A DNA stretch of 64,000 nucleotides from an uncultured Kiloniellaceae bacterium (GTDB lineage: Bacteria; Pseudomonadota; Alphaproteobacteria; Kiloniellales; Kiloniellaceae): positions 868,001 to 932,000 of the forward strand of contig CANLSF010000001.1 in assembly GCA_947493695.1 (NCBI GenBank), read 5' to 3'. Positions within the stretch are counted from its first letter, which is position 1. The number at the start of each line of letters is the position of its first letter. Below, piece by piece: positions 8,670-55,301 of this stretch. The notes below the pieces were generated by a model. The model saw only the letters and a list, made by a program, of their open reading frames with translations, searched no databases and was not told where the DNA came from. The translations under genes were made by a program, and so were the position numbers.

Positions 8670-8687
8670 AACGAGTAAGAAAAAATA

Positions 8688-9258: not shown

Positions 9259-9678
9259 ATGACGTCACGCCTCGAACAGTTGTGTATAGACAAGGGATTA
9301 AAGATGACCGAGCAGCGTCGCGTCATCGCCCAGGTGCTTTCCGAGTCAACAGATCATCCTGATGTTGAGCAGGTGTATCAGCGCGCTTCCAAACATGATC
9401 AGAGAATCTCGATTGCTACGGTTTACCGCACAGTCAAACTCTTTGAAGAGGCCAATATTCTCGATCGTCATGATTTCGGTGACGGGCGCGCCCGCTATGA
9501 GGAAGTGCCGACCGAACACCATGATCATCTTATCGATGTAAACAGCGGCGATGTCATCGAATTCAGCAACGAGACCATTGAGAAAATACAGCAGCAGATC
9601 GCTGACTCTCTGGGGTACAAACTGGTTGGTCATCGTCTTGAACTCTATGCAGTCCGCCAGAGTGAAGAGTCTCATTAA
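9259..9678 (+). CDS. fur: Fur family metal-responsive repressor (Fur/Mur type)
   Basis: A 139-residue protein. The winged helix has KMTEQRRVIAQVL and ISIATVYRTVKLFEE; the metal site includes EHHDHLID (residues 86-93). The C-terminal CxxC zinc pairs found in enterobacterial Fur are absent; the only cysteine is Cys9. This pattern is typical of alphaproteobacterial Fur/Mur proteins, which often answer to manganese as well as iron. A second Fur-family gene, irr, lies near 41.8 kb, so the usual division of labour (Irr for iron/haem status, Fur/Mur for manganese) is likely here (inference). Confidence 0.88.
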   Translation: MTSRLEQLCIDKGLKMTEQRRVIAQVLSESTDHPDVEQVYQRASKHDQRISIATVYRTVKLFEEANILDRHDFGDGRARYEEVPTEHHDHLIDVNSGDVIEFSNETIEKIQQQIADSLGYKLVGHRLELYAVRQSEESH

Positions 9679-9816
9679 GTTCGCGGAACCGCATTGGAAG
9701 GCGCCTGCGGACGCTGCGTTGTTCCAATCTCTATATCGTTCCGGTCGAGCGGAGCGCTTGATAAGGGACTGTGTATCAAGTGACGCCAGTGACGCGATCG
9801 TGAAGGGAAAGCCTTG

Positions 9817-10713: not shown

Positions 10714-10714
10714 T

Positions 10715-11710
10715 ATGGATGCGGTCGATGTGATGGATCCGCGGCGGGAGTCCATGGATCCCAATCCCGGGTCATTCCTGCGGTCACTTTGCCGGATCCT
10801 GGTCTACGTCACCTTCACGGTCATATTGATACCCGTTCAATATATAGCTGTGCGGACCGGGTCCTCACTGCAAAGCAGTCTGCCGCGCTGGTATCACCGG
10901 CAATGCTGCAGAATTCTGGGGTTTCGGGTTGAGCGGCGCGGGCGCCAATCGCGTACGCACCCCACCCTCTATGTCGCCAATCATTCCTCCTATATCGACA
11001 TCATGGTCCTTGGGTCTTTGCTTCAGGCCTCCTTCATCGCAAAGTCCGAGGTCGCCGGCTGGCCGTTTTTCGGGTGGCTCGCAAAGCTGCAGCGCTCGGT
11101 CTTTGTCGAACGACGCCGGCATAAGTCCGGTGAGGGCCGGGACGAAATGACGATGCGCCTTCAGGCGGGTGATGATCTGCTGCTGTTCCCGGAAGGTACA
11201 TCCAACGACGGCAACACGGTGTTGCCTTTCAAATCTGCGCTCTTCGCAGCAGCGAAAACCGAGTTCGATGGCCAGCCGATAACGGTGCAGCCTGTGTCCG
11301 TTGCCTATACAAGACTCGACGGCGTGCCAATGGGGCGTTATCTAAGGCCCTTCTTCGCCTGGTATGGCGATATGGAACTGGCGAGCCATATATGGCGTGC
11401 GGTCGGTTTGGGATGGGTGACGGTGGTGGTCGATTTCCATCCGCCAGTCACACTTGACGAGTTTAACTCGCGCAAAGCTATGAGCGATCATTGTTATCGT
11501 CAGGTGTCGATTGGTGTCGCGGCGGCCTTGTCGGGGCGTCCGCGCAAGCGGGTGGAACAACTTGTTGCAGCGCGTGAACTGGCCCGATTGACTGACGAAC
11601 GTCCGCTGGAAGAGCGGCGAAAAGCGGATCGGCGGACGATTGCGGCTGAGGTCGAGCAAGAGCCGGAAGCCCCAGCAACCCCGCCGCTTGTGAGTTCGCC
11701 GAAGGAATGA
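10715..11710 (+). CDS. olsA: Lyso-ornithine lipid O-acyltransferase (OlsA; PlsC family)
   Basis: About 331 residues with an N-terminal membrane segment (about 24-45) and the PlsC acyltransferase motifs: NHSSYID (His90-x4-Asp95), FVERRR, and FPEGTSNDG. It acylates lyso-ornithine lipid, or lysophosphatidate, at the inner membrane. Placement right after olsB favours the ornithine-lipid role. The start is taken as ATG 10715, just after the olsB stop; ATGs at 10733 or 10754 are possible. The acidic, proline-rich C-terminus (ending EAPATPPLVSSPKE) is probably disordered. Confidence 0.88.
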   Translation: MDAVDVMDPRRESMDPNPGSFLRSLCRILVYVTFTVILIPVQYIAVRTGSSLQSSLPRWYHRQCCRILGFRVERRGRQSRTHPTLYVANHSSYIDIMVLGSLLQASFIAKSEVAGWPFFGWLAKLQRSVFVERRRHKSGEGRDEMTMRLQAGDDLLLFPEGTSNDGNTVLPFKSALFAAAKTEFDGQPITVQPVSVAYTRLDGVPMGRYLRPFFAWYGDMELASHIWRAVGLGWVTVVVDFHPPVTLDEFNSRKAMSDHCYRQVSIGVAAALSGRPRKRVEQLVAARELARLTDERPLEERRKADRRTIAAEVEQEPEAPATPPLVSSPKE

Positions 11711-11795
11711 ACGAAACGTCTCGGTAGAGCCGGTCTGCGGTTGATTTGTATAACCGCACTGATTGGGTGGTCCGAGCATGCTGGTGTAACGAAAA

Positions 11796-13247
11796 GTGTC
11801 AAAGAAGCTTTTTATCAAGACCTACGGCTGCCAGATGAACGTCTACGATTCGACGCGGATGTCCGATGTTCTGGCGCCGCTGGGGTATCTGCCGACGGAT
11901 CAGCCCGACGGTGCGGACATGATCATTCTCAACACCTGCCATATTCGGGAGAAGGCTTCCGAGAAGGTGTTTTCGGAGCTTGGCCGCTTAAAGCAGATGA
12001 AGCTGGAAAAGAGCGCGGACGGCGGGCGTATGATCCTGGCGGTGGCCGGGTGCGTCGCGCAGGCTGAAGGCGATGAGATCCTGCGGCGTGCGCCCCAGGT
12101 GGACTTGGTGTTCGGTCCGCAGACTTATCATCGCCTCCCTGAACTGGTGACGCGCACCTTGCGTGACGAAGACGCCGGTGGGGTTCTGGATATCGATTTC
12201 CCGCTCGAGTCCAAATTTGATGCTCTGCCGGATGATTCGGTGGTTGAGGGCGCATCCGCCTTCCTCTCGATCCAGGAAGGTTGCGATAAGTTCTGCACGT
12301 TTTGTGTCGTGCCTTATACCCGGGGGGCGGAGTTCTCACGCCCTGCGGCGGATATCTTTGCCGAGGCGCAGCGCCTGGTGGCTGCCGGTGCCCGTGAGAT
12401 CACGCTGCTCGGCCAGAACGTAAACGCCTATCACGGCGACGCGCCTTCGCTTGTTTTTGGGGGGGCGGCAGATGCCGCCGCTTCGTCGACCTGGGGATTA
12501 GGCCGCCTGCTGCGCTATCTCGCTGAAATCGACGGTCTGGAGCGGTTGCGTTACACCACATCCCATCCCCGGGATATGGACGATGAGCTGATTGCGGTTC
12601 ACGGCGATGAGCCGAAGGTCATGCCCTATTTGCATTTGCCGGTGCAATCCGGGTCGGATCGGATTCTTGAGGCGATGAACCGTCGTCACACGGCGGATGA
12701 CTATCGGCGGATTGTCGATCGTTTGCGCGATGCCTGTCCGCAGATTGCGCTGTCTTCCGACTTTATCGTCGGCTTCCCGGGCGAACGCGATGAGGATTTC
12801 GCGGATACGCTGCGACTGATCACCGACGTCGGTTACGCGCAGGCCTACTCCTTTAAATACAGTCCGAGGCCGGGCACGCCCGCTGAGGCAATCGAGCAGC
12901 AGATCGACGAGGCGGTCAAAAGCGAGCGCCTGGAGACTCTGCAGAACCTGCTCTCGGCACAGCAGATCGCCTTCAACCAATCGGCGGTTGGCCAGACCAT
13001 GCGGGTTCTGATGGAAAAGGCCGGACGCCGGGATCATCAGCTCTCGGGCAGGAGTCCCTTTATGCAGTCGGTGTTCGTCGAGGCAAACGGTCGTCTCCTG
13101 GGTAAAGTCGTGGAGGTTCGTATCGAAAAGGCCCATGCCCGCAGCCTGGAGGGGACGGTCGTGACCGGCACCTATAGCGGTGTGGCGGGCGTGGCAACGC
13201 AGCCTTCGAATCATAGTGGTGGCCCGAGCATGGAGGCTGCGTCTTGA
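11796..13247 (+). CDS. miaB: tRNA-2-methylthio-N6-dimethylallyladenosine synthase MiaB
   Basis: 483 residues with the full MiaB layout. The UPF0004 domain cysteines are Cys12 (YGCQMN), Cys48 (NTCHIRE) and Cys86 (AGCVAQ), which bind the sacrificial 4Fe-4S cluster. The radical-SAM motif CDKFCTFC gives Cys163, Cys167 and Cys170. A TRAM domain is at the C-terminus ([13 protein letters not shown] onward). It adds the methylthio group to i6A37 of tRNAs. Start is GTG at 11796. Its stop overlaps the phoH start. Confidence 0.96.
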
Positions 13248-14248
13248 GTCCTTCGTCTGGAAAAGGCTCTGATGGGCCTGCCGTGATCGAATTTGACGAC
13301 AATGCACTTCTTCCTTTGCTGTACGGCGAGCATGATCAGAATCTCGTGCGCCTGGAGGAACGGCTTGGTGTTCGTGTTGCGTCGCGTGGAAACCGGCTGT
13401 CGATTTCGGGACCGCCGGAACAGGTGAAGGCCGCAAGTGATGCGGTTTCCGCGCTCTATGAACGTTTGCGCAAGGGGATGGACGTGGGCGAAGGAGAGAT
13501 CGACGCGGCCGCGCGGCTGGTCCAGACCGATCCGCAGGAGCCCAACAAAAAGGGTGCAGTGGAATCCATGCATGGCGACGATCTGACCATCGTCACCCGC
13601 CGCCGGAAACTCACGCCGCGCTCTGCGGGACAAGCACGTTACATCTCTGCTCTGCTGGATCATGAGCTGGTTTTTGGATTGGGGCCAGCGGGCACCGGCA
13701 AGACCTATCTTGCAGTTGCCGTTGCGACCTCGATGTTGATCACGGGCCGTGTCGAGCGGATCATCCTGTCGCGTCCGGCGGTCGAAGCCGGCGAGCGCCT
13801 CGGGTTCCTGCCGGGTGATATGCGCGACAAGGTGGATCCTTACCTGCGGCCTCTCTATGACGCGCTGCATGACATGCTGCCTGCGGAACAGATCGCGGGT
13901 CGCCTGGAAAGCGGCGAAATCGAGATCGCGCCGCTCGCCTTTATGCGGGGCCGGACCCTGAGCAACGCCTTTGTGATTCTGGACGAAGCTCAGAATACGA
14001 CACCCGTGCAAATGAAGATGTTTCTGACCCGTCTGGGAGAAAACGGTCGCATGGCGATTACCGGTGATCTGTCTCAGGTCGATCTGCCAAAAGGACAACT
14101 CTCCGGACTTCAGGACGCCTTCGACACCCTGCGGAACATGAAAGAACTCTCCTTTGTCGAGTTCACCAATGCCGATATCGTGCGACATGATCTTGTGACC
14201 AAGATTGTGAAGGCCTACGAAGCGCGTGACAAATCCTCGGGCTCTTGA
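13244..14248 (+). CDS. PhoH family ATPase (YbeZ-like)
   Basis: 334 residues: an N-terminal RNA-binding-like region ([22 protein letters not shown]-like) and a P-loop ATPase domain with GPAGTGKT at residues 147-154 and VILDEAQN for Walker B. It belongs to the PhoH/YbeZ group that works with the RNase YbeY, whose gene follows. Start is TTG at 13244, overlapping the miaB stop (TTGA), so the two are translationally coupled. Confidence 0.93.
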
Positions 14249-14438
14249 CAAGATCAGCGCAGACAAAGCGCGAGCTGCACTTTGGGTTTGGCCAGTTTAA
14301 GTCGTGAGACCAAGTATTGCTGGTGTATAGTTTTTTGACGTTGAGGGACGAGTGCGCGGCCGTTCAATCGGAAACGCTCCTGGTCCAGATGTGCATGTGT
14401 AACCATTTCGTCGATATGACGGCAGTTCGCTTGAGAAG

Positions 14439-15065
14439 ATGAACGACGACCCTGACAGTACCGGCTTGAGCATGGAAATCGCGATTCTCGATTCCTGCTG
14501 GCATGAGATTCTCCCGGATTTACCTCCGTCGGACACTGCGTCCGATAACCCGGCCGATGAGGCCGGCCAAGAGATTGTGGCGTCTGACGGTCTGATCCAG
14601 CGTGCTGCTGCTGCGGCCTTTGCGGATGCAGCCCCGGAGCCTCTACGGGACAATCCGGTGGAGCTCAGCCTGGTACTGGTGGATGATGCCCACATCCGGG
14701 TTCTCAATAATGATTATCGCGGTTTTGACAAGCCGACCAACGTCCTGTCGTTCGCGGCGCTGGATGATGACGATGCTCTGCCTGCAGGGACTCCCGTCCT
14801 GCTCGGCGATGTCATCCTGGCCCGGGAGACGATTCTGCGCGAGGCCGCCGACCAGGGTAAGGCTGTGACGAGCCATGTCAGTCATCTGGTCGTTCACGGG
14901 GTGCTTCATCTTCTCGGGTTTGACCACGAGACCGACGAGGATGCTGAAGAGATGGAAGGGCGTGAGATTGCCATTCTCGAAAGGCTGAAAATTGCCAACC
15001 CCTATCACAATATATCGGGTGGTGAACTTCATTCCGATCACGAAACGATGACGGGTTTGCAATGA
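14439..15065 (+). CDS. ybeY: Endoribonuclease YbeY (rRNA maturation)
   Basis: Up to 208 residues. The metalloprotein signature HLVVHGVLHLLGFDH gives zinc ligands His153, His157 and His163. FDKPTNVLSFA is the conserved substrate region. YbeY acts in 16S rRNA 3' maturation and ribosome quality control. The first about 70 residues are longer and more acidic than in many homologues; ATG at 14472 (MEIAIL) is an alternative start. The stop overlaps the next gene's start (ATGA). A 190-base gap separates it from phoH and may hold its own promoter. Confidence 0.94.
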   Translation: MNDDPDSTGLSMEIAILDSCWHEILPDLPPSDTASDNPADEAGQEIVASDGLIQRAAAAAFADAAPEPLRDNPVELSLVLVDDAHIRVLNNDYRGFDKPTNVLSFAALDDDDALPAGTPVLLGDVILARETILREAADQGKAVTSHVSHLVVHGVLHLLGFDHETDEDAEEMEGREIAILERLKIANPYHNISGGELHSDHETMTGLQ

Positions 15066-15997
15066 GCGAAGCGGCGGGAAACGAGAAATCGGCCAGATCC
15101 GGTGAGGCTTCCGTCTTTGGCGGATTGAGAACCTGGCTGACAGGATTGTTCAAGTCGCGCAACGGTGATTCGCAACTGCGCGAGACGATCGAAGAGATCA
15201 TCGTCGAAATCCAGGAGAATGAGGACGAGAGCGAGGCGGCGACGCCGATCAGCACAGACGAGCGGATGATGCTCGGCAATATCCTCAAACTCCGTCATCT
15301 GACGACCTACGACGTTATGGTTCCGCGTGCGGATATCGTTGCGGTTGACATCAATACGCCCATCGACGAACTGATTGAGGTTATGAGCCGCGCGGGACAC
15401 TCCCGTTTGCCGGTGTTCCGCGGAACCCTGGATGATGTCGTCGGGATCGTTCATATCAAGGATCTACTCGAGCACACGAAGCAGCAGAAGCCCTTCAAGC
15501 TGGCGGATATCGTTCGCAAGGTCCTGATCATTGCACCTTCGATGCGGGTTCTGGATCTGTTGCTGGAAATGCGCCTTTCCCGTGTTCACCTGGCGCTCGT
15601 TGTTGACGAATTTGGTGGTATCGATGGTCTTCTGACCACCGAAGACCTGCTGGAAGAGATCGTTGGCGAGATCGAGGACGAGCATGACGTGGAAGAAGGC
15701 CCCAAGCTTGTCGAGCGCTCTGATGGCCTGTTGGCCGCGGACGCCCGCGCGACCGTCGAGGAATTTGAAGAACTGGTGGGACCGATTTTGTCCGACGAGG
15801 AACGCGACGAGGACATCGACACGCTTGGCGGTCTGGTGTTCTTCCTGGCCGGACGCGTCCCTGCCCGCGGCGAGCTGATTGTGCATCCAACGAGCGGTGT
15901 CTGCTTTGAAATTCTCGAGGCTGACCCCCGGCGTGTGAAGCGACTGCGCATTCGTCAGCTCCCGGAGCGTGCTGAGTCCGAAGCCGCGAATGATTAA
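15062..15997 (+). CDS. corC: CorC/HlyC-type transporter-associated CBS protein
   Basis: 311 residues without membrane segments. After a charged N-terminus come two CBS domains (about residues 90-210: MVPRADIVAVDINTPIDELI, HSRLPVFRG, VVGIVHIKDLL) and a C-terminal CorC_HlyC domain (about 225-300: DIDTLGGLVFFLAGRVPARG). It is placed between ybeY and lnt as in many proteobacteria. CorC proteins modulate magnesium/cobalt efflux, but direct function is not well settled. Confidence 0.93.
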   Translation: MSEAAGNEKSARSGEASVFGGLRTWLTGLFKSRNGDSQLRETIEEIIVEIQENEDESEAATPISTDERMMLGNILKLRHLTTYDVMVPRADIVAVDINTPIDELIEVMSRAGHSRLPVFRGTLDDVVGIVHIKDLLEHTKQQKPFKLADIVRKVLIIAPSMRVLDLLLEMRLSRVHLALVVDEFGGIDGLLTTEDLLEEIVGEIEDEHDVEEGPKLVERSDGLLAADARATVEEFEELVGPILSDEERDEDIDTLGGLVFFLAGRVPARGELIVHPTSGVCFEILEADPRRVKRLRIRQLPERAESEAAND

Positions 15998-43587: not shown

Positions 43588-44928
43588 ATGAGTGAAGGCA
43601 GTTTGGACGCGCCGGTCCGTTACGCGATCGACTGGAACGATCCTGATTTCTACGATTTCGACAAGATCAACGCCGAGCTGGAGCGCGTGTTCGACATCTG
43701 TCACGGCTGCCGGCGTTGCTTTAATCTCTGCGAATCCTTTCCGATGCTCTTCGATCTGATCGATGATTCGGAAAGCGGCGAGCTGGATACGGTCGATGTT
43801 GCAGACTACAAGCCGGTCGTCGACGCCTGCACGCTCTGCGACATGTGTTTCATGGTGACCTGCCCTTACGTTCCGCCCCACGAGTTCAACCTGGACTTCC
43901 CGCATCTGATGCTGCGCTACCGCGCGGCGGAGCTGAAGGCCGGCAAAGCCGACAAGGCGCTGCAGCAGCTGACCAAGACTGACCGCAACGGCAAGCTGGC
44001 GGGCATGATGCCCGGCCTGGCCAACTGGGCCAGCGACACCGGGAACAATCTGACCCGGCCGATCCTGGAAAAGACCATGGGGGTCGACAAAGAGGCTGCT
44101 TTGCCGAAGTTCCACGGCAAGACCTTCGCCCTGCGCGCCAAGAGCGACGGCGTGACCCCGAACAAGGACGCGCCCGGCTACGGCCGCAAGGTCGCGCTCT
44201 ATGCCACCTGCTTCGTGAACTACAACAATCCGGCGATCGGCGAGTCGGCCCGCGCGGTGCTCGCCCATAACGGTGTCGAGACCGAGGTGGTTTATCCCTC
44301 CTGCTGCGGAATGCCGCAGTTCGAACAGGGTGACATTCCAAAGGTTGCCGAGTCCGCAAAACGCGTCGCCGCCGTGATGTCGGTCTGGATCGACAAGGGC
44401 TACGACATCGTCGCCCTCACCCCTTCCTGCGCGCTGATGCTGAAGTTCGAATGGCCGCTGATCCTGCCGGAGGACGAGAGCGTCAAGAAGCTCTCCGCCG
44501 CGACCTCCGACATCACCGAGTACGTGGTGGATATCGCCAAGAAGGAAGGCCTGGCCGATGGCCTCACGGCGCTGGACGGCGGTGTTGCCCTGCATATGGC
44601 CTGCCACGCGCGGGCGCAGAACATGGGGGCCAAGGCCGCCGAGATGCTGCGCTTCGTGCCCGAGGCCGATATCAAGGTGATCGAGCGCTGTTCCGGTCAC
44701 GGCGGCAGCTGGGGCTGCATGAAGGACAACTTCGAAAAAGCCATCAAGGTCGGACGCACCGCCGCGCGCCAGACCGCCAGCAGCGGCAAGACCTACGTGG
44801 CGTCGGAATGTCCGCTCGCGGGCACGCATATCCTGCAGGGTATCGAGCGCCTGAAGATGGAGGACAAGCCGCAGATCGAGGAAGCGCAGCATCCCATCGA
44901 ACTGATGGCCCGCGCTTACGGACTTTAA
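43588..44928 (+). CDS. Heterodisulfide reductase-related Fe-S protein (GlpC/HdrD-like)
   Basis: 446 residues. Two 4Fe-4S motifs near the N-terminus: CHGCRRCFNLC (about residues 37-47) and CTLCDMCFMVTCP (about 81-93). The C-terminal half has CCG-type segments (YPSCCGMPQ and ERCSGHGGSWG) as in GlpC and HdrD. It should pass electrons between a reduced donor and a partner, here probably the rubrerythrin next door (inference). ATG 43588 is preceded by GAGGGGAA. DUF3501 follows 98 bases later. Confidence 0.88.
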   Translation: MSEGSLDAPVRYAIDWNDPDFYDFDKINAELERVFDICHGCRRCFNLCESFPMLFDLIDDSESGELDTVDVADYKPVVDACTLCDMCFMVTCPYVPPHEFNLDFPHLMLRYRAAELKAGKADKALQQLTKTDRNGKLAGMMPGLANWASDTGNNLTRPILEKTMGVDKEAALPKFHGKTFALRAKSDGVTPNKDAPGYGRKVALYATCFVNYNNPAIGESARAVLAHNGVETEVVYPSCCGMPQFEQGDIPKVAESAKRVAAVMSVWIDKGYDIVALTPSCALMLKFEWPLILPEDESVKKLSAATSDITEYVVDIAKKEGLADGLTALDGGVALHMACHARAQNMGAKAAEMLRFVPEADIKVIERCSGHGGSWGCMKDNFEKAIKVGRTAARQTASSGKTYVASECPLAGTHILQGIERLKMEDKPQIEEAQHPIELMARAYGL

Positions 44929-45026
44929 CAGGCTTGCGGCCTTTAATCACCGGCGATCGGCTCTAGGTAAGAGGGTCTGATCGCGCGTAAGTGCCGACAG
45001 GTCCCAAATCAGAGACGAGAAGATAA

Positions 45027-45641
45027 ATGTCAGTTTCAGGAGACACCGCCATGGCGGACAAGCGCATGATTACGGCCGACGACATCCTGCCCATGGAGGT
45101 TTATGCCGCCGACCGCAAAGCCCGGCGCAAGGCCCTGGTCGACGTGAAGCGGCACCGCCGTATCGAGGTCGGTCCGGTCTGCACCTTCTACTTCGAGAAC
45201 TACGAGACCATGTGGTCCCAGGTTCAGGAGATGCTCTACATCGAGAAGGGCGGCGACGAGCAGCTGAAGGACGAGCTGGAAGCCTACAATCCGCTGATCC
45301 CCCAGGGCAGCGAACTGGTGGCCACGGTGATGTTCGAAATCGACGAGCCGGTGCGCCGCGCAACCTTCCTTTCCAAGCTGGGAGGTGTCGAGGAGACGGC
45401 CTTCTTCCAGTTCGACGGCGAGACCGTGGAGAGCACGCCCGAGCAAGATGTTGACCGCACGACCGCAGACGGCAAGGCCTCGGCGGTGCAGTTTATGCAC
45501 TTTCATTTCACAGCCGATCAGGTGGCCAAGTTTCGCGCCGAAAACCAGCAGGTGATCCTGGGCTTCAAGCACAAGGCCTACAGCCACATGGTGGTTCTGC
45601 CCGAAGACGTTCGCGCGGCGTTGGCAGCGGATTTCGCTTAA
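45027..45641 (+). CDS. DUF3501 family protein
   Basis: 204 residues, soluble. The N-terminal ITADDILPMEVYAADRKARR and the middle FYFENYETMWSQVQEMLYIEKGG are the family signature; FMHFHFTADQ and HKAYSHMVVLPEDVR close the domain. No catalytic function is known. DUF3501 genes recur with a rubrerythrin and a GlpC-like Fe-S gene, exactly as here. Start ATG 45027 has a GAGAAG upstream; ATG 45051 is an alternative that would lose eight residues. Confidence 0.88.
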   Translation: MSVSGDTAMADKRMITADDILPMEVYAADRKARRKALVDVKRHRRIEVGPVCTFYFENYETMWSQVQEMLYIEKGGDEQLKDELEAYNPLIPQGSELVATVMFEIDEPVRRATFLSKLGGVEETAFFQFDGETVESTPEQDVDRTTADGKASAVQFMHFHFTADQVAKFRAENQQVILGFKHKAYSHMVVLPEDVRAALAADFA

Positions 45642-45693
45642 GATCCGACAGGGTCAGTGGCCGAGATTTTTTCCGTGCTCGGCACTCAAAGAA

Positions 45694-45738
45694 AATCAGC
45701 CTCTACATTTATTGATGTAGAGGCTGATTGTTTTTTTT
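45694..45738. terminator. Strong bidirectional terminator
   Basis: AATCAGCCTCTACAT and ATGTAGAGGCTGATT form a perfect 15-bp stem (45694-45708 and 45715-45729) with a 6-base loop, then eight T at 45731-45738. An A-rich run before the stem gives a U-rich tract for the minus strand too. It ends the DUF3501 transcript and may serve the convergent PEP-CTERM gene. Confidence 0.9.
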
Positions 45739-45779
45739 AGTCAGTGGATGAAGACCTGAGGGGCTTCACGTTCATGAGG

Positions 45780-46463
45780 TCAGGCGGTTTTCTTTTTCCG
45801 CCGCCTTGCTACGATTCCCAGGCCGGATAGTCCCAAAGCAAGTAAAGCAATGCTTGCAGGCTCCGGAACACTGCGCGGCGCGGCGAAGAGTTCGGGCCCA
45901 TGTGAAGCGGTTTCCACTGGTCCGAATGAGGCACCGAAACCGGGTGCGGGAATGCAGCACTGATTTATCAAAAGGATGTCGAGCGGACCGAAGACCGCGA
46001 GCAGCACGGGATCGACGGTGAAGCTGTTGGAAATGAATTGCACACCACCAGTCGGCTCCGCAAAGCCGTTCAAGAAGGAATCAAGGTTTCCCGAAAATAC
46101 GATTGTGCCCGGTGCGATACCAAGCGTAGCGCTGCCGCCAATCAGAGAGAAGGAGCCGCCGGAAAAGACCCCGGCCCCATCAATTGTTGCCTGCAGCGTG
46201 AAGCTGCCGACAAAGTCGTTGGAGATTTGGTTCCCTCCTGAATAGGCATCGTAGAAATCGTATGGCGAGTCTCCGCCACCGAATGTCTGATCGAGGGTAA
46301 AGCTGTCTGTTACCGCGTTGTAAGCGACGATCGAAGGATTGACCGATGTAATAGCCGTGAAAGTCGGTGAGAGATCGTCAGGATTGAGATATGCGGCTTG
46401 GGATGGGGTGTGGAGGAAAAGAATAAAAACCGAACATAACGCGCTAAAAAATTTACTTCGCAT
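45780..46463 (-). CDS. PEP-CTERM sorting-domain protein
   Basis: 227 residues. Signal peptide at residues about 1-23 (ends PSQA). The body is Gly/Ser/Phe-rich beta sequence with no enzyme motif. The C-terminus has the full sorting tripartite signal: VPEPAS, a hydrophobic segment IALLALGLSGLGIVA and a basic RRRKKK tail. Such proteins are cut and exported by an exosortase (EpsH/XrtA type) to the surface or matrix. No exosortase gene is in the window. Confidence 0.88.
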   Translation of the reverse strand: MRSKFFSALCSVFILFLHTPSQAAYLNPDDLSPTFTAITSVNPSIVAYNAVTDSFTLDQTFGGGDSPYDFYDAYSGGNQISNDFVGSFTLQATIDGAGVFSGGSFSLIGGSATLGIAPGTIVFSGNLDSFLNGFAEPTGGVQFISNSFTVDPVLLAVFGPLDILLINQCCIPAPGFGASFGPVETASHGPELFAAPRSVPEPASIALLALGLSGLGIVARRRKKKTA

Positions 46464-47250
46464 TATAATAACCTTTCTGGAAGTTCATTCACATAAAAGG
46501 CCCCCGCCGTCGGGCAAACATGGTTAACGCAAAAACCGGGCCATTTAATTAAAATGTTTAAATTCAGAGAGTTAAGGCTCTTTCTAATTTGCAGTGGCTT
46601 GAGGTTGTTAAGAATTCTGACAGTGTTTTGAGACTTAAACAGAGTTTTTCGCGCCAATATATATACGCTAAAACAATAGTTTGCCCCTCTACACTGCAGA
46701 AACTCTGCGTTTTTATGTTCACTCTGGGTTGTAAGATTCCCCGACGGTCATGGTTTTACGGACAGCCTGGACGCTCCAGGCAGCGAGAATGCGGAATTTT
46801 TTTAACCTGCGCGATATCAGTTCCACAAACGAGCGCTCGATTTTTTTTTCGAAAGGATGAGGTCACGATTGTGGCTCTTAATCAGGTGTCTTGCCGGTTA
46901 CGGTCGTCGGGACTATACCCGCCAGCGCGCTCGTCCGGGTCTTACTATATTTCTGAACGCTGATGCCTTCTGGTGAGATAAAAAAGTAATATGTCCCTTT
47001 AAAAAAATTAAGACGGCCTGCAATACCTCCGTCGCCATGGGAAAAGGGTCGTGAAAAAATTCTCTATCGAAATTCGAGTGATGTGCGTGAATTTCAGAAT
47101 ACAAAAAAACCGACTAAAAACATATGATGTCCCGAAAATAAGACAAACGGTTATCGCGAATGGATATGACCATAGGAGAGATTTCCGTGCAGTATTGTTT
47201 GTCAAAGTTGAGGTGTTCGGCGATCCTGTCCCTGAACGCGCGCGGTGTCT
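46464..47250. other. Long AT-rich region with no recognised gene
   Basis: 787 bases, lower in GC than the neighbours, with several runs of T and A. Short open frames on both strands (up to 124 codons) look random in composition and none has a ribosome site with a family-like product. It must contain the PEP-CTERM gene's promoter at its left end. It marks the left side of the accessory region. Confidence 0.5.
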
Positions 47251-47868
47251 TTACGGCGTGAGACAGGTTTGAATCGCCGGTCGCGCACACACCAGCTCGT
47301 GACAGTTCCGGATCGACGGGTAGGCTGCCAGCAAATCCTCGACCGGTTTGAACCAGGTCACCAGCATGGTCATGTAGATATCGGCGATGGAGAATTGATC
47401 GCCGAGATGATAGGGACCGTTTTCACTTAAGTGCGCATCGACCGGCTGCCAGCACTGCATCAGGGCCTCGACCGCTTTCGTCTTGATTTTGGGGGCGTCG
47501 AAGGGATCGGTGGAAAAGCGCTGCGGATAGTAAAAGCGCTTGTAGGTGTCCTGTACATTGTTGGAGAGATAAAAGAGTGAGCGGAGAAAGAGAGCGCGTT
47601 GCGGATGACCCGGCGGCGGCATCAGGTTGTCCAGGCCGTGTTCCTCGCAAAGATAGAACATGATGGCGGTGGCTTCGTAGAGGACCTCGCCGTTGGGCAG
47701 GCGCATCGCCGGGACCTTGGCGAGAGGGCTGATCGCGCGGTATGCCGCCCCGTAGTTTTCACCGGCGGCAAGATCGACCGGGATCAGCTCGTGCGGCAGT
47801 CCGGCTTCCTCCAAAACGGCCTGTGGCCCGAAGCTTGCGGTGTCGAATGCCCAGTAGAGTTTGTACAT
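47251..47868 (-). CDS. Glutathione S-transferase family protein
   Basis: 205 residues. Thioredoxin-like N-domain (about 1-80: YKLYWAFDTASFGPQAVLEEAG, split by a Ser-type motif; KVPAMRLPNGEVLYEATAIMFYL with the glutathione cis-Pro) and an all-helical C-domain (about 88-200, with FSIADIYMTML as the N-capping motif). Substrate unknown. It lies next to a fragment of a lysE-type 3' end. Confidence 0.88.
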   Translation of the reverse strand: MYKLYWAFDTASFGPQAVLEEAGLPHELIPVDLAAGENYGAAYRAISPLAKVPAMRLPNGEVLYEATAIMFYLCEEHGLDNLMPPPGHPQRALFLRSLFYLSNNVQDTYKRFYYPQRFSTDPFDAPKIKTKAVEALMQCWQPVDAHLSENGPYHLGDQFSIADIYMTMLVTWFKPVEDLLAAYPSIRNCHELVCARPAIQTCLTP

Positions 47869-48315
47869 GCCTTTGTCTCAGTCCTTTTCCGTGCGTCCGT
47901 TGTTTCCACCTTTGCATTGAAGTCATTCTCCAGCAATCCACTGGGTGATCAAGCTGTTTGCCGACCGAGGGCGCTAAAGCTGTGCAGCCCCCATGAGCGA
48001 TACCGGACATCCGACTGAGATCGTGGGGTAACTGTTCCATGACCAACTGAGGCGCTAGCTGCAGTGCGACAGACGGTCGGATTGGGCGGATAGCGGAAGT
48101 TCGCTGTAAGTGCGAAGGCATCGCGTGCCAGTGGAAGGAGCGGACGTTCAGGCATTGATTGCGCTATGACTGATTCGACCCGTCGTGCAAGGTGGGACGC
48201 GAGAGGTGCTGCACTATTTGCAAAGGTTTGCTAAGCAGACCAATATGCGAAACTTGCTGGGCGGAGTAGGACCCGCGTCAGTAAATCCACGACTTCTTCG
48301 AATTGGGCATGACGC
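47869..48315. other. Intergenic region between GST and reverse transcriptase genes
   Basis: 447 bases. It holds the lysE-tail remnant at about 47933-47978 and otherwise degenerate sequence. If the reverse transcriptase uses a structured RNA, its gene could lie in this stretch, but I cannot identify one by eye. Confidence 0.45.
47949..47978 (-). pseudogene. Remnant of a lysE-family 3' end
   Basis: On the minus strand the last codons FSALGRQTA and stop match the C-terminus of the LysE at 54675 (FTALGRQTA and stop). At DNA level 47933-47963 and 54659-54689 agree at 27 of 31 bases, all four differences being transitions, and the match runs past the stop codon into the downstream sequence. Upstream of this fragment no further LysE coding is seen. 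Confidence 0.6.
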
Positions 48316-50403
48316 TTGACTGATCTGTCTCGAGTCTTTGATCTGGCAAACCTCCGGCGGGCTTATCGTTGGACGCTGTCCAATCCTGATGCCGTCTACA
48401 AATCGTATTTTCGCGACTCGTATGATTCTTTCGCCATCGCCTCTGACACCCATCTCAAATGGATCAAGGCTGAAGGCTTGAAGGATCGCTACGAGGCCTC
48501 CCACGCTTCGAAAGTGCTGATGCCCAAGCCTTCCGGCGTTCTCAGGCCGATAGCGTTGCTGAAGGTTGAAGACCAAATCGTCTATCAGGCGATAGTCAAT
48601 CTGATCGCGGAAGAGCTGAAGAAGCGGACAAAGCAACGTTATGAGAAGCGCGTATTTGCGCATCTCTATGCAGGCAAAACCTCGAAGTTTTTTAATATCA
48701 AGTGGCAGAAAAGCTATCGGAAATTTGCGGATCGGCTGCGCCACTGCCATTCACGCGGCTATGATCACATTGCCAGTTTTGACCTGACGTCGTTCTATGA
48801 TTCGATTGATCACCATGTTCTGGTTCACTTCCTGAAAGAGCTTAAGGTCGACGAAGACACCATTGAGTATTTGATGTTTTGCCTTCGCAAATGGACGTCT
48901 GCTACATGGAGCAATGGTCCGGCAAACATCTATCACGAGCACGGGATACCGCAGGGGCCACTCGCCTCGGGAATGCTCTCGGAAGCTGTTCTGCAACATC
49001 TCGACAAGGCCGGAGAACAGGGCGGACGGCGCACCATTTACCTGCGCTATGTCGACGACATCAAGATCCTTGCCAAGACGGAGGAAGACCTTCGGGCAAA
49101 GCTGATAAAGCTGGATATAGCCTCTAAGGAAATCGGACTTTTTCCGCAGACGGCCAAGATCAATATCCGCAAAGTCAGCGATCCTGAAGACGAGATCAAA
49201 TCCGTCAGTCGCCCTCCTGAGCCTTCGCTTATTCTTGGCATTGATCAGAAGAAGCTCACGGCACGCATTCTTGAGCTTTGTCGCCGTGGGCGCGTCGCAT
49301 CACCAGACTCTACGCGCTTCAGATACCTTCTGGCCAAGGTGAACCCCAGCCACCGGTTGAACACGCGGCTGATCAAGGTTCTTCAATCCCATCCGGAATA
49401 CGCACCCCAGATCGCATCCTACATTTCCAGATACGCTCAGGTTCCTGCAGGCATGGCCGCCGATATCAAGGCCTATCTTGACAGTCAAGAGCTCTACCAT
49501 TCCGTTCTGGCCGTCATTCTTGATGCTTGTCTGAAACGGCTTCCACCGCAATACGAGAATGACATCGGGGATGCCGCCGCAGATCGGCTTCTACGACCGA
49601 AAGCGGGGGCATTGCCGCTTCAGCCGACATACAAAGCATCCTTGATTGCCTGGGCCTTGTCTGCACGAAAGCTCACATATGCGGAATATGACGGACTCGT
49701 CTCAGGTGAGCCTGACTGGTGGATCAAGAAACGCTCGGTCATCGCGCTTACCTCGGACACTTACGGTGTGCCGAGCTACGAAGCCTTTATGAATGCACGC
49801 ATGCGAGAAAACGGGTCTGAGGTGGCTAGAATATGCGCCGCCAGACTGGTCGAAGGTTCCCACAAGCTCACGAAACCTTACGGAACTGTCGAAACAACAG
49901 CCAAACATGTCCTTAGGGCCGCAAAACTCATACGCGTTGTTGGCGCGCCGGACAGCCGTATACCCGAGATCATCGCCTATATTCTGAACCGAAAGCGCAC
50001 AACATTTGACTGGAAGGCTTTGTTTGGCCCCGGGCACAAACATGCGGAGCGCATGATGATCATGCTCAAACGGGACAGAGAAGCCAATATCGAGAAATTC
50101 CTCGTGCACCTTGATAGCTGGTGCGACCTTCTTCTCTCGGAGGTTTATGGACGGCTTAAGCCTGGAAAGACTTATCCTGCCTATGGATCGGCATTGAATG
50201 ATGCCAGTCTAGCCGCTGCCCTACCAACTGCTATACCAACCTTGAAAGGCCTTCATGCCTTAAGGCTGGAATCCAGTGTGGCTCACCCGAGAAGCCAGAA
50301 GACTGGAAAGCCCACCAGACGGTTGAAACATCACGATTTTTACAAGATGCGAAAGCAGCTCGTTCCTGCCTTTGACGAAATGGAGCGCGTTATTGTTCCA
50401 TAA
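48316..50403 (+). CDS. Reverse transcriptase, Abi/unknown-group (DRT-like) type
   Basis: 695 residues. RT motifs in order: RPIALLKVEDQIVYQAI (about 77-93), SFDLTSFYDSIDHHVL (154-169, first catalytic Asp156), GIPQGPLASGML (210-221), and YLRYVDDIKIL (242-252, Asp247 and Asp248). After residue 300 come about 400 residues of helical sequence without a maturase/HNH domain, unlike group II intron RTs; it is also too long for a retron RT. This matches Abi and UG RTs, several of which are proven phage-defence proteins. The exact group is not determined. Start is TTG 48316 directly after an in-frame stop, with a weak ribosome site. Confidence 0.85.
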   Translation: MTDLSRVFDLANLRRAYRWTLSNPDAVYKSYFRDSYDSFAIASDTHLKWIKAEGLKDRYEASHASKVLMPKPSGVLRPIALLKVEDQIVYQAIVNLIAEELKKRTKQRYEKRVFAHLYAGKTSKFFNIKWQKSYRKFADRLRHCHSRGYDHIASFDLTSFYDSIDHHVLVHFLKELKVDEDTIEYLMFCLRKWTSATWSNGPANIYHEHGIPQGPLASGMLSEAVLQHLDKAGEQGGRRTIYLRYVDDIKILAKTEEDLRAKLIKLDIASKEIGLFPQTAKINIRKVSDPEDEIKSVSRPPEPSLILGIDQKKLTARILELCRRGRVASPDSTRFRYLLAKVNPSHRLNTRLIKVLQSHPEYAPQIASYISRYAQVPAGMAADIKAYLDSQELYHSVLAVILDACLKRLPPQYENDIGDAAADRLLRPKAGALPLQPTYKASLIAWALSARKLTYAEYDGLVSGEPDWWIKKRSVIALTSDTYGVPSYEAFMNARMRENGSEVARICAARLVEGSHKLTKPYGTVETTAKHVLRAAKLIRVVGAPDSRIPEIIAYILNRKRTTFDWKALFGPGHKHAERMMIMLKRDREANIEKFLVHLDSWCDLLLSEVYGRLKPGKTYPAYGSALNDASLAAALPTAIPTLKGLHALRLESSVAHPRSQKTGKPTRRLKHHDFYKMRKQLVPAFDEMERVIVP

Positions 50404-50856
50404 GGCCCTAAAGATCAATGCACTAGGTACTCGGTCAGGACGGCAGTTTTGACGTGCCGCATCGCAGCATGAACATGGGTAAGTGTATGTCAGGTGTGGG
50501 CCGTTCTCGACACTCTGGACTGGAGTTTTCTGGCGAGGTGTCACAGTGCAGGAAATGACCGGAACGAGCCCTTCCACGACATTGGTTAAGCGGTGTGATC
50601 GCAGACACCTATTGAGTAAATCTGCGGTCAGCGAAACACTTTACAACGTGTGTGCGAAATGCCATCTCTTCGCTTTGTTCGAACCGAACACTGCCCCGAT
50701 CTCTCTAATGGATCCGGTAACAGGGTTGAGCCACGGGATTGTGGTCATTAATCTGCGCAGGGATATTCTGAAATGAGGAATGCTGATTTTTGTATGACGC
50801 ATCGCGATAGGGTGATCGCGTAGCAACTCCCCCTGTGCATCCGAAGAGACTACGCA
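50404..50856. other. Intergenic region downstream of reverse transcriptase
   Basis: 453 bases, no gene supported. It contains the first 75-base direct-repeat copy (50497-50571). Confidence 0.5.
50497..50571 (+). repeat. 75-base direct repeat, copy 1
   Basis: Begins TGGGCCGTTCTCGACACTCT and ends ACCGGAACGAGCCC. It matches 53083-53157 at 72 of 75 bases, same orientation, and similarity stops sharply at both ends. The two copies enclose the coupled gene pair at 50857-52731. Confidence 0.9.
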
Positions 50857-51501
50857 ATGTCGAATGAAAGCCGCGGATTTCTGGCGCATCCTCTGTTTGT
50901 CGCTGTTGTAGTCGTGTGTCTTGGCGCCGCCGGGTTTCTGTTGCAACGGTACTATTTCGACGCTGACCGAAGCGCGGTTCGGCTCGAAGTTCAAGCACTG
51001 GAGCAGGTCACGGAGCTGATCGGCGATCTTCCAAATGCAGATGGAACGACCGTCTACTGTGACACAATGCGCCTTAAGCTTCTGGTTGCGCATAATGGCG
51101 AAGGGAACTCCCGCGTTTCGGTTCTGCGTTTGGGTGTTCGGCATGAGATAGCCAACGAGACAGTGGATTTGACTGGCTGTCGGATAGACCCACTGGCTGG
51201 GCGTCCTCACGGTATTGTCGGTGCGGAAAGTTACAAGATTCATTTCAGGAGAAATGGGGTTGACGCGAGGCACTTCGTCTCACAAACGAACTCTAGCGTG
51301 ATCGATCCGGCTAACCTAATCACCAAGCAGAGCGGCCCTGCATTCATTTCAATCGCACGAGACGACGCTCCGGTCGTGTTCGACATCATAGTCACCAACG
51401 TGCGCAAAGATTTACTCTCTATCACTTTCGTCGCAGAGACTGATGTCGAGGACCAACAGCCAACAAGCACCTCTCCATTCTTGATCGCGGGGGCTCGGTG
51501 A
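50857..51501 (+). CDS. Uncharacterised single-pass membrane protein
   Basis: 214 residues. One membrane segment near the N-terminus (about 11-30, PLFVAVVVVCLGAAGFLLQ) with a large, beta-rich outer part containing Cys66 and Cys109, which could form a disulfide. I recognise no family; the strand pattern suggests an Ig-like or similar sandwich. The stop is directly followed by the next gene's ATG, so the two should be translated together. Flanked by the 75-base direct repeats. Confidence 0.75.
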   Translation: MSNESRGFLAHPLFVAVVVVCLGAAGFLLQRYYFDADRSAVRLEVQALEQVTELIGDLPNADGTTVYCDTMRLKLLVAHNGEGNSRVSVLRLGVRHEIANETVDLTGCRIDPLAGRPHGIVGAESYKIHFRRNGVDARHFVSQTNSSVIDPANLITKQSGPAFISIARDDAPVVFDIIVTNVRKDLLSITFVAETDVEDQQPTSTSPFLIAGAR

Positions 51502-52731
51502 ATGCCCGCACAGTCGCTACGGGCCGTGGGCGCCGCACTACTTCTAGGCCTAGCTCTGTCACCTGCGCTAGCAGAGGACACGTCTAAAACTGACGCGTTC
51601 ATGAGGTCAGTCCAGGATGGATTTCGGTCGACGACCGAGTTGAAAGAGGTCGACGCCCTAGTCGCCGACGAGAAGTTCGAAGAGGCTTTCGTTGCAGTCA
51701 CAGAGGTCATCGAGCAGGCTTCTAAATCGGCACCGTCCTCAAGACGCGCGCGGTTCGTCGGAGCTGAGGCGCTTATGCGCCGCGCCGAGATCCGACAGAA
51801 GCTGCTCCATGACAACCTGAAGATCATAGCTGACGAAAACGCGGCCGCCGAATTGGGTTCAGTCCGCGCAATGTACCACTATGCGTCTCGGATCATCCTA
51901 TTGCATTCGCCCGGAGAGCAACAAGGTATCGACATTGGCCTGCTGCCACCAATCGCGGCGGCTAAGGAGATGTACCGGCGCGCCGCTTTTTTGGGTGACC
52001 TTACGTCGGCCGACCTGCTAACGGCGACACTCGTTATGCCTCATGAATTTCTAGAGAAGAACTACTGGGGCTTTCTGCAACGCGTGAACGCCGACCTCAA
52101 AAAGTTCGCGTCAGTCCATAAGGATTTTGAGGACGTTCTGACGCCCCGCGATTTCACTCTGCTCAGGGCGGCGGTAGATCGTTACGGTTTGAGCGAGATC
52201 GATGGACTGGTGACAACGCCTTCGTTACCAGGCCGGTCTGTGTTCGTCGCATATCAGAATGATTACTGGCTGAGACGAAGGTTAGCCTTCGCATGGAGGG
52301 CATTTTTTGCTGAGAACCAGCCTTCTTCCATGTTCACCATTGCCGATACATTCGACGCGGAGCGATCGGTTGTAGCAGTCGAGGGCTTGAGCGATCTCTA
52401 CCTGATTGTGCCTGGCGCGGCAGGTACCGTTCTTCCGAATCTTGTAGTGATCGAACGAGAGGCGACGGCGGATGCGATTTCAGCTGGCGACGAGATAATG
52501 GTTCGATGCGGGTCTGACGACCACAAAGCAACTGTATGGTCGGTAGATCGGGAAAAGCGCATAGTTCATATTGTCGACCCGTTCTATGAGTTCTGGAAAC
52601 CGGACCAAACACCGTGCACGCCCAGCTTCGATTTAATTGAGTTCACCTCAGCTCGCCAATTGATAAAGCTTGACCTAGACGAGGTAGTGCCGATGGTGTT
52701 GGCGATCTTCACGCTAAGAGATCCATTGTAA
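51502..52731 (+). CDS. Uncharacterised secreted helical-repeat protein
   Basis: 409 residues with a signal peptide (about 1-24, ending ALA). Residues 30-190 are helical with TPR/Sel1-like spacing (YHYASRIILLHSPGEQQG, AAKEMYRRAAFLGDLTSADLL). The C-terminal part (about 230-400) is a mixed domain containing DDHKATVWSVDREKRIVHIV followed by DPFYEFW; His/Asp residues there recall papain-like or transglutaminase folds, but the catalytic Cys is not obvious. No family recognised. Starts with ATG immediately after the upstream stop; likely acts in the periplasm with the upstream membrane protein. Confidence 0.75.
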   Translation: MPAQSLRAVGAALLLGLALSPALAEDTSKTDAFMRSVQDGFRSTTELKEVDALVADEKFEEAFVAVTEVIEQASKSAPSSRRARFVGAEALMRRAEIRQKLLHDNLKIIADENAAAELGSVRAMYHYASRIILLHSPGEQQGIDIGLLPPIAAAKEMYRRAAFLGDLTSADLLTATLVMPHEFLEKNYWGFLQRVNADLKKFASVHKDFEDVLTPRDFTLLRAAVDRYGLSEIDGLVTTPSLPGRSVFVAYQNDYWLRRRLAFAWRAFFAENQPSSMFTIADTFDAERSVVAVEGLSDLYLIVPGAAGTVLPNLVVIEREATADAISAGDEIMVRCGSDDHKATVWSVDREKRIVHIVDPFYEFWKPDQTPCTPSFDLIEFTSARQLIKLDLDEVVPMVLAIFTLRDPL

Positions 52732-53082
52732 CAACCCAAGCCTGTCCATCGCGGATTCGGTGGCCCCCTCTTATGAAACGGATCCACGCCTAATGTTGAC
52801 TTCCTTAACAAGGAGCATCCGTGCCTGGGAAGAAGGACAAGTCCGCATAAATCGTCGCTAAGCCGTGGCAAGCCTTTTCCCCATCGTCTCTTCCGTTTCC
52901 GATTGGCCTAGCCAGTGCTGGTCTGAAGAAGATCTGAAAATGATTGTAAGCCTCGCAAGTCGGAACGGCAGGTTTGTCCCGCGGAGCCGACCTAAAGCCA
53001 TTGTTCGACTTTGCACTCGCTGCGAATGACAGCTTTTGGGAACGCAGCTGCAAAATCTGAAGCCTGGTACGAACGGCTGCTA

Positions 53083-53157
53083 TGGGCCGTTCTCGACACT
53101 CTGGACTGCAGTCTTCTGGCGAGGTGTCGCAGTGCAGGAAATGACCGGAACGAGCCC
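53083..53157 (+). repeat. 75-base direct repeat, copy 2
   Basis: Same orientation as 50497-50571 with three substitutions. Flanking bases on both sides differ from those of copy 1. Confidence 0.9.
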
Positions 53158-53282
53158 AATGTGCTAGTTGCTGCATGATGCGCGAATGTCATCTTATGGT
53201 GGGTTGGCCAAAAAAAGGAGTTTTGCCGAGATTTTACCGTACAAGATAAGTCATTGATTGTGTTCTCAATGCCATCAATTAC

Positions 53283-53315
53283 AAAAAAGACCGTTTTTGA
53301 TCGGTAGGTTTTTTG
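53283..53315 (-). terminator. Weak terminator-like hairpin for the minus-strand gene
   Basis: Read on the minus strand, ACCG and CGGT pair around ATCAAAAA, followed by C and six T. The short stem is weak, but it lies 34 bases after the stop of the 282-residue protein gene. Confidence 0.35.
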
Positions 53316-53338
53316 TTCCCTAGCGGTCACTTGCCTCG

Positions 53339-54187
53339 TTAATTGGAAGCTTTGGCCTGTTCGGCATCAGTTTCCGCCAAGGCTTCTTGAAGTCTGTCCG
53401 CTGCCTGTCCAGGCTTAAGCTGCCGCGTTAGTATGTGACCTAAAACACCTCCGGCCCCTAACCCTACAGGCCCGGCGATTAGCGAACCAAGCGAGGAACA
53501 TGTAAGAATGATGCTCGTCGGAATTGTGGCGCTGGCAATATTCTCCGGAGTGAAAGTGTCTACAAAATTCTCGAATAGCGCTGATCTGAATCTCGCTCCC
53601 CAAGATCCAGCCGTCTCCACTTCTGATGGATTGTCCGAAGTGTGGATTTCCTGGCTCTCTTCGACGAGTAACATTAACTCTTCAATGGACTGAAGTTTTT
53701 GTAGTCTCAAATCCTCCGGATCGAAATTGTCACCTCTAACCTGCTCCCGAAGCTCCAAAAGAAGCGAGAGAGATGCTTGGGACACCAGTAGCACCTGTAG
53801 GCGCACAACACTCGTTTCATTTCTATTTTGGACGGCTTGCGATAAGTTGGATGAGCCAGAGCTCATGAAGTGCGCCAATAGCCCGTTGGCGAGCTTTCGC
53901 GTATCTGCGATTTGGCTTAACTCATTCATGTGCGGTGATGTTCTATTTTGGGGATTTCGAAATTTCGGATCGTCGTATATCGGATCGTCGTGTAAGAGAT
54001 GACGGATAATGATCGGTGGGACTCCAGACATCGTTTGAAGCTTCTTCTCATCCAATGACCATTCCAGAATGATGGAGTTCAGTTCTCCTTGAATTTTTCC
54101 ATGTTCATAGCCTTTCTGACTGTCCAAGGCCTCCAATAGACTTTGAAGCCTAATGACTGTTCGCCATGCTGCTTTTACTGCGCTCAT
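53339..54187 (-). CDS. Uncharacterised helical protein with glycine-rich hydrophobic tail
   Basis: 282 residues. The first 220 are helical and charged (SLLLELREQVRGDNF, LRLQKLQSIEELMLLVEESQE suggest coiled-coil). Residues about 222-258 form a hydrophobic Gly-rich stretch (SIILTCSSLGSLIAGPVGLG, then AGGVLGHIL) that could insert in a membrane as a hairpin, before a short charged tail. No family recognised. A helical sensor with a membrane-active end is a known shape among abortive-infection effectors, but here that is only a guess from layout and location. Confidence 0.7.
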   Translation of the reverse strand: MSAVKAAWRTVIRLQSLLEALDSQKGYEHGKIQGELNSIILEWSLDEKKLQTMSGVPPIIIRHLLHDDPIYDDPKFRNPQNRTSPHMNELSQIADTRKLANGLLAHFMSSGSSNLSQAVQNRNETSVVRLQVLLVSQASLSLLLELREQVRGDNFDPEDLRLQKLQSIEELMLLVEESQEIHTSDNPSEVETAGSWGARFRSALFENFVDTFTPENIASATIPTSIILTCSSLGSLIAGPVGLGAGGVLGHILTRQLKPGQAADRLQEALAETDAEQAKASN

Positions 54188-54674
54188 TTGAACTTACTCC
54201 AGAACCCAACTACCATATACCTCTGCGAGAGAAATTGATCTAGCTAGACATGTTAGCGTGCAACGCAAGGCGAATACTAACGGTATCGACCGCGAAATGC
54301 TCTGGTGCGCGAGACATTTGTTAACCGCCGAGGAACTGCTCAAAACTCATACTTTTTTGCCACCGGCATAAAGGCTGTATTTTTGCACGTAATCGAGAGC
54401 GGCCATTAGAGCAGCTGCAGTTAAATTTAGCTTTGTCCGCCATCCGGACCTTTGCTTGCGCGCCTGGTTCGCGAGCGCGGCGAATGTCTGGTTCAGTGTT
54501 CCGTACCTGCTGCACCGACTATGTAAACGACCGGCAGCAAGGGGCCGATTGCAGACCCTCTGCGTGGCAGGTTAACGATTGTGAAGTCTGCGCATCTCGA
54601 TTTCAGCTTTCTTGAAGGTCAGCTATAGACGGGGTTCGCGGCTTGGAGGTTTTTTTCGGCAATCCGCCGGGTGA
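54188..54674. other. Intergenic region, right side of accessory region
   Basis: 487 bases, no gene. The stretch 54400-54490 resembles decayed sequence. The 3' end adjoins the lysE stop and carries the right copy of the lysE-tail repeat (54659-54689). Confidence 0.45.
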
Positions 54675-55301
54675 TCAGGCCGTTTGCCGTCCCAATGCCG
54701 TGAAGGCGCCCGCGCCGATCAGACAGCCTGCGCCGAGCCGGTTCACGAACTTCAGGGTGGTCGGGTTTTTCAGTCCGTCGCGCAGTTTCCCGCAGAGCAG
54801 GACCCAGAGCAGGTTGCTGATCAGCACCATGGCCAGGAAGGTGATCTCGATGGTGATGATCTGGGCCAGCGCCGGTTCGGCGGGATTGATGAACTGCGGC
54901 AGAAAGGCCACGAAGAAGACGATGTCCTTCGGATTGAAGGCCGTCACCAGAAAGGCCTGCCGGAACACGGTGAGCCTGCTTTTGTTTCGGGACGTCGTCT
55001 CCGGCTCCACCGGTTTTGCATCCGTTCGCCACATCTGAATGCCCAGCCAGATCAGATAGGCAGCGCCCAGGACTTTCATGATGGAGAAGAGCGTTGCAGA
55101 GGCGGTCAGGATTGCGCCCGCGCCCATAAGGGAAACCGTCATGGCAGCGAAGTCGCCAAGGACGACACCGGGGATTGCTGCGATGGAGACCGAACGGCCC
55201 TGCCCGAGTGTGTAGCTGAACAGCAGCATGACGACCGGGCCGGGAATGGCGAGCAGCACAGCGCTCGCGGCAACAAAAGCAAGCCAAACTTCGGATGTCA
55301 T
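54675..55301 (-). CDS. LysE family amino-acid/metabolite exporter
   Basis: 208 residues, about six membrane segments. LysE/RhtB signature: LAIPGPVVMLLFSYTLGQGR at the start, KVLGAAYLIWLGIQMWR, and FLVTAFNPKDIVFFVAFLPQF. It exports amino acids or similar small molecules. A divergent LysR regulator lies 170 bases away and probably controls it, as with LysE and LysG. Its last codons are also present as a fragment near 47.95 kb. Confidence 0.92.
   Translation of the reverse strand: MTSEVWLAFVAASAVLLAIPGPVVMLLFSYTLGQGRSVSIAAIPGVVLGDFAAMTVSLMGAGAILTASATLFSIMKVLGAAYLIWLGIQMWRTDAKPVEPETTSRNKSRLTVFRQAFLVTAFNPKDIVFFVAFLPQFINPAEPALAQIITIEITFLAMVLISNLLWVLLCGKLRDGLKNPTTLKFVNRLGAGCLIGAGAFTALGRQTA

Follow-up and report, generated by a model that had tools for sequence, protein, structure and literature searches.

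A UG19 reverse transcriptase with a predicted AbiA-like domain plan on a strain-specific genomic island of an uncultured Kiloniellaceae bacterium

UG/Abi reverse transcriptases (RTs) were reportedly classified by Mestre et al. in 2022. AbiA of Lactococcus combines an RT domain carrying an RYVDD box with a helical domain and an all-helical C-terminal domain that bears an R-x6-H motif, the HEPN motif RNSNPVSH (PMC11077055, in the part concerning this motif). According to the same part of that paper, the HEPN domain is required for dimerization and polymerase activity, substitutions in its motif left defence against the phages tested intact, and RNase activity was not seen; AbiK and Abi-P2, which consist of an RT plus a helical domain, are described there as having no HEPN domain. 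The C-terminal domain of AbiA is listed as RT-fused and as occurring in an operon with restriction-modification (R-M) genes in an excerpt of PMC3710099. The Class 1 RTs studied (RT plus alphaRep) are template-independent, and the Class 2 DRTs studied require a noncoding RNA (ncRNA), as stated in the pertinent portions of PMC12632851, PMC13174585 and PMC13275509. UG19 already has a name as an RT group, but no account of its function, partner or fold was found in the open-licence literature searched; in the accessible portion of PMC8934634 the group is named once, in a table. Here, we describe a gene that almost certainly encodes a UG19 RT in a 64,000-nucleotide stretch of DNA from an uncultured Kiloniellaceae bacterium (contig CANLSF010000001.1, positions 868,001 to 932,000), which in its whole length is referred to as the window.

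The gene and its catalytic core are located as follows:

48316..50403, + strand: UG19 reverse transcriptase gene (695 aa, TTG start; RT_UG19 570 bits, residues 3-692)
48523..49170, + strand: RT domain (RVT_1, Pfam), residues 70-285
48778..48813, + strand: RT motif with catalytic D156 (FDLTSFYDSIDH, residues 155-166), D156 invariant in 10 of 10 rows
49048..49059, + strand: YVDD catalytic box, residues 245-248, invariant in 10 of 10 rows

RT_UG19 is the best match among the PADLOC profiles and a full-length one (profile positions 2-560 of 562), and the runner-up, UG21, reaches 172 bits over residues 11-296; nothing that we examined separates the window RT from the group. The sequence-only reading had taken the gene for a large UG/Abi-type RT, probably antiphage, of no evident subgroup and perhaps of a new type. 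The first part is borne out by the family score as well as by the neighbourhoods and prophage carriage of relatives, and a new type is ruled out by this clear match to a group already named in PADLOC. The RT motifs and the YVDD box noted by eye were recovered with RVT_1 (65.9 bits, cut-off 29.6), the RYVDD box occupying residues 244-248, with D156, D247 and D248 invariant in the alignment. Likewise, no maturase, endonuclease or integrase domain was found in the protein with Pfam and NCBIfam at E ≤ 1, in agreement with that reading; NCBIfam returned RT models only, all under their cut-offs, and Pfam no further credible domain. The gene is the sole RVT_1 match in its own genome (E ≤ 0.001).

The alignment (A5) holds 10 rows, namely the window protein and nine UG19 relatives, seven of them from genomes (L077-L083) and two from IMG/VR contigs (L084 and L085, which are also entered as L075/L076 and L100/L101). 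All rows match the UG19 profile at E ≤ 1e-20 and amount to about five lineages: the window protein, L077, L078 and L079 form a tight clade of 84-86% identity, and L082, L084 and L085 are mutually close. The outgroups L003 and L004 are UG21 proteins. The TTG start proposed earlier is supported because the relatives begin at the same place, the close ones with TTG or GTG and the prophage-borne ones with ATG. Moreover, the gene is under purifying selection (dN/dS 0.056 against L077 and 0.075 against L079; dS against L078 is saturated). The open reading frame (ORF) is genuine and its RT is intact.

Judging from predicted models, the protein probably follows a three-part plan like that of AbiA, in which the RT core is followed by Abi-polymerase-type alpha-helical repeats and a HEPN-like tail with an R-x6-H motif of the same spacing:

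49351..49920, + strand: alpha-helical repeat domain, residues about 346-535 (AF2 helices at medium confidence; the VIA-align rows of AbiK and Abi-P2 extend into it)
49993..50400, + strand: C-terminal four-helix, HEPN-like domain, residues about 560-695 (AF2 of residues 548-695)
50263..50286, + strand: R650-x6-H657 motif (RLESSVAH), R and H invariant in 10 of 10 rows

Residues 548-695 modelled alone with AF2 gave a pLDDT of 90.2 and a pTM of 0.85, with predicted helices at 566-590, 592-614, 639-651 and 672-693. In the predicted models, helix 2 carries D600 and D604, and helix 3 has R650 at its end, a placement that fits the HEPN arrangement as far as it is described in the relevant section of PMC3710099. 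Invariant residues cluster near the end of the tail (D600, D604, Y620, G624, P637, H647, R650, S653 and H657), and R650 and H657 stay constant across the roughly five lineages in a tail that is, for the most part, poorly conserved. When the 18 invariant tail residues were placed at random, R-x4-6-H arose in about 2.4% of trials, a figure that serves as a guide only, since the motif was picked after inspection and kinship is ignored.

Several observations weigh against a HEPN tail. The residue after R650 is L or Y in all 10 rows and not N, D or H, a polar residue at this place being typical of HEPN, albeit not universal, in the excerpt of PMC3710099. In addition, no HEPN profile of Pfam matched any of the 10 UG19 tails at E ≤ 10, HEPN_AbiA_CTD missed the UG19 RTs in 10 genomes or records at the same threshold, and a tail profile gave zero matches to PDB chains at E ≤ 10. 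Sequence searches of the PDB with the window protein and the A5 profile matched RTs, including AbiK, over the RT part, and yielded no credible match over the tail. The one weak HEPN_AbiA_CTD match at E ≤ 10, on contig C52 of the genome carrying L083 (E 0.042, 15.5 bits), sits in a 271-aa frame and hence is not the RT; five of the 14 controls rang below the cut-off. AbiA relatives were found in none of 398 genomes (E ≤ 1e-80) and HEPN_AbiA_CTD in none of 299 (E ≤ 1e-5), counts that are uninformative, as the 14 controls were equally silent. Among the RTs listed for loose patterns, six of 69 frames exceed 480 residues, and none has an evidently AbiA-like tail.

The alpha-repeats and the HEPN domain that had been foreseen for residues 300-695 thus find agreement in the predicted models and the invariant R-x6-H, whereas a HEPN profile match is missing. 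On the models, we regard a HEPN fold of the tail as probable. Because the HEPN profiles are silent and L or Y follows the motif arginine, where AbiA has N, we speak of a HEPN-like tail and keep UG19 apart from AbiA. The two also differ in that the PADLOC AbiA profile matches the window RT only at residues 50-176 (47.9 bits), that the NCBIfam AbiA model reaches 36.4 bits against a cut-off of 250, and that UG19 lacks an invariant tyrosine where priming takes place in AbiA. Should UG19 share the AbiA plan, a second and distant family would be available for testing the role of a HEPN tail in an antiphage RT. The tail and the R-M linkage given below are of most value to specialists.

Besides AbiA, the RT plus helical domain of AbiK and Abi-P2 resembles the front part of the window protein: with the full-length model, the VIA-align row of AbiK spans 411 residues (model 12-539) and that of Abi-P2 343 residues (model 11-510). 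HEPN structures are absent from the 50 VIA-align rows listed, a list that is filled by the RT part and has no bearing on the tail. A viral fold search returned mostly RTs and viral RNA polymerases at TM values of about 0.15-0.29 on the query and was uninformative. UG21, the group of the next best profile, includes two proteins that are 23-25% identical to the window RT but shorter (635 and 542 aa), and on these the UG19 profile ends at positions 476 and 473 of 562. One UG21 RT (L004, 3995-5623) is plasmid-borne in a haloarchaeon, with ArdC-like and helicase genes next to it.

We infer that the UG19 RT very likely has an antiphage role, which is supported by the family score, the gene neighbourhoods and the prophage carriage of relatives. 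Five of the nine relatives, from two clades, have a defence or prophage setting. An R-M neighbourhood is present in two of the nine, L077 and L078, where the RT follows 22 nt behind a type I hsdR gene (HsdR of 1137 aa) and where the HsdR and RT block is conserved (74% over 5.6 kb). The order is hsdM-hsdS-hsdR-RT in L078, with ArdC-like and relaxase genes after it, and GmrSD, hsdR, RT in L077, with relaxase and NikA/MobC-like genes after it. In three others, L082, L084 and L085, the RT is part of prophage-like regions, where an endolysin gene ends 90 nt before it and an integrase gene lies 7 nt away; L084 reads portal, major head, holin, endolysin, RT and integrase by PHROGs names, and L082 and L085 have the same ORF order, with the integrase of L082 confirmed by Pfam. 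L083, preceded by a MoeA gene and followed by one for a PIN-domain protein, has no clear defence context, and L079-L081 are contigs of 3-6 kb. The L077 region 4469-15362 encodes a GmrSD-type enzyme, HsdR, the UG19 RT, a Fic-domain protein, a relaxase and NikA/MobC-like proteins, and apparently is a compact, mobilizable defence cluster.

The explanation that we prefer, with a chance that we put at about even, is that of a stand-alone antiphage UG19 RT which makes DNA independently of a template and whose HEPN-like tail serves for dimerization or RNA cleavage. On the model of AbiA, DNA synthesis by the RT core would need no nucleic-acid template and would start from a residue of the protein as primer, and the HEPN-like tail would pair two subunits. 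Infection would trigger or redirect this DNA synthesis, and phage reproduction would be blocked. For template-independent synthesis by UG19 taken by itself, the chances are likewise about even.

A first alternative is that the HEPN-like tail is an active RNase effector, with the RT or its DNA product as the sensor, and that RNA cleavage shuts the infected cell down. The invariance of R650 and H657 in a mostly poorly conserved tail, the low frequency of such a motif among randomly placed residues (again as a guide only) and the position of D600 and D604 in helix 2 of the models speak in its favour. Nevertheless, the AbiA substitutions cited above from part of PMC11077055 were harmless to defence against the phages tested, RNase activity was not seen there, and L or Y follows the motif arginine in UG19, so that we hold this alternative to be doubtful.

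The preferred explanation also has to be weighed against one in which UG19 uses an RNA template, as Class 2 DRTs do, that comes either from another genomic locus or from a short element that escaped recognition. The window and L077-L079 share 75-79% DNA identity from start codon to stop and not beyond; the prophage pair L082/L084, 83% identical overall, falls to 50% in the 19-78 nt upstream of the RT. Room is scant in two kinds of neighbourhood, with just 7 nt between the RT and the integrase gene in L082/L084. Besides, the four alphaproteobacterial UG19 genes have no peak of synonymous constraint; in the prophage UG19 genes (L082 10001-10105, L084 and L085), the first 35 codons have a codon identity of 0.91 versus 0.66-0.84 in other windows of the genes. 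It counts against the lack of a cis-encoded RNA that L077 and L078, and only these two, share 65-85 nt 3' of the RT stop. In cis, no conserved adjacent ncRNA was seen in the flanks of the window gene, L077-L079 and L082/L084, in contrast to the ncRNA-templated DRT2, DRT9 and DRT10, and this argues against an ncRNA template. We therefore consider it rather likely that UG19 has no cis-encoded RNA template, and a templated mode of any kind unlikely. The prophage copies, whose endolysin and integrase neighbours leave hardly any space for an RNA gene, offer compact constructs for asking whether one protein suffices.

We speculate further, and with low expectation, that UG19 may represent a second, separate RT-alphaRep-HEPN defence lineage beside AbiA that acts as a back-up behind type I restriction: once restriction had failed, untemplated DNA from the RT core would arm or restrain an active HEPN RNase on the same polypeptide. 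Finally, it is most improbable that the RT belongs to a mobile intron or a retron, or that the gene has been domesticated for a housekeeping role: although the RT part reaches 78.6 bits with group_II_RT_mat and group II-like RTs, matched in the RT part only, head the VIA-align rows, this score and that of retron_St85 (39 bits) remain under the NCBIfam cut-offs of 300 and 235, Rfam gives zero matches in the whole window at gathering thresholds, and the gene is patchily distributed and borne on islands or prophages. A place in the group II intron or retron clade, or an intron structure around the gene, would have contradicted the sequence-only reading; in view of these sub-cut-off scores and the empty Rfam scan, both are rejected.

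The patchy distribution is apparent from the searches, in which the genome sets overlap. UG19 was found only in the window's own genome among 98 genomes of relatives and among 398 of the phylum (both E ≤ 1e-60), among 385 of the class (E ≤ 1e-50; the single extra match is a UG21) and among 61 of the order (E ≤ 1e-80). By its 16S, the host looks like an alphaproteobacterium; the plasmid-borne 16S copies among the matches listed, from Phyllobacterium, Rhizobium and Ensifer, are 89-91% identical. None of 708 matching records in the plasmid collection and none of eight in the phage collection reached 80% query coverage; among the matches listed, most are group II intron or other RTs of 21-26% identity. 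Whole-protein patterns matched two stretches in IMG/VR, neither of them a relative, while loose RT patterns gave at least 69 loci, mostly other RTs, with a best E of 2e-10 among the matches listed. A scan of IMG/VR with UG19 returned the records of L084 and L085 again and nothing further.

The RT gene was probably acquired with a small genomic island:

47980..54670, no strand: strain-specific island with the RT, about 6.7 kb, absent from the same site in G003 and of lower GC
47933..47966, + strand: flanking direct repeat, left copy (34 nt, 85% identity)
54659..54692, + strand: flanking direct repeat, right copy (34 nt, 85%), overlapping the end of the LysE gene

In the congener G003, 859 nt separate the GST and LysR genes, against 7,604 nt in the window. 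According to blastn, the extra DNA is bounded by positions 47979 and 54671, and a diverged direct repeat marks each end. The UG19 RT is absent from all three congeners (G001, G002 and G003), of which G001 and G002 have the neighbourhood of the site arranged differently from the window. GC content is about 0.46-0.59 within the island versus 0.61-0.65 farther out (44000-45499 and beyond 55500). Three other island ORFs, at 50857-51501 (+), 51502-52731 (+) and 53339-54187 (-), have no PADLOC, Pfam or NCBIfam match at E ≤ 1, and thus no island integrase was recognised.

The region had been called repeat-bounded from its letters, which the flanking 34-nt repeat corroborates; a 75-nt direct repeat of 96% identity lies inside the island (50497-50571 and 53083-53157). 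The latter has two copies only in its own genome, is unsupported as a structured RNA (z -0.92) and may mark a second small insertion. It flanks the two unclassified ORFs beside the RT (50857-51501 and 51502-52731). A further low-GC stretch is located at 46250-47500, and the stretch of a PEP-CTERM protein gene at 45636-47254, partly of low GC, is about 1 kb longer than in G003 and perhaps represents a second strain-specific insertion.
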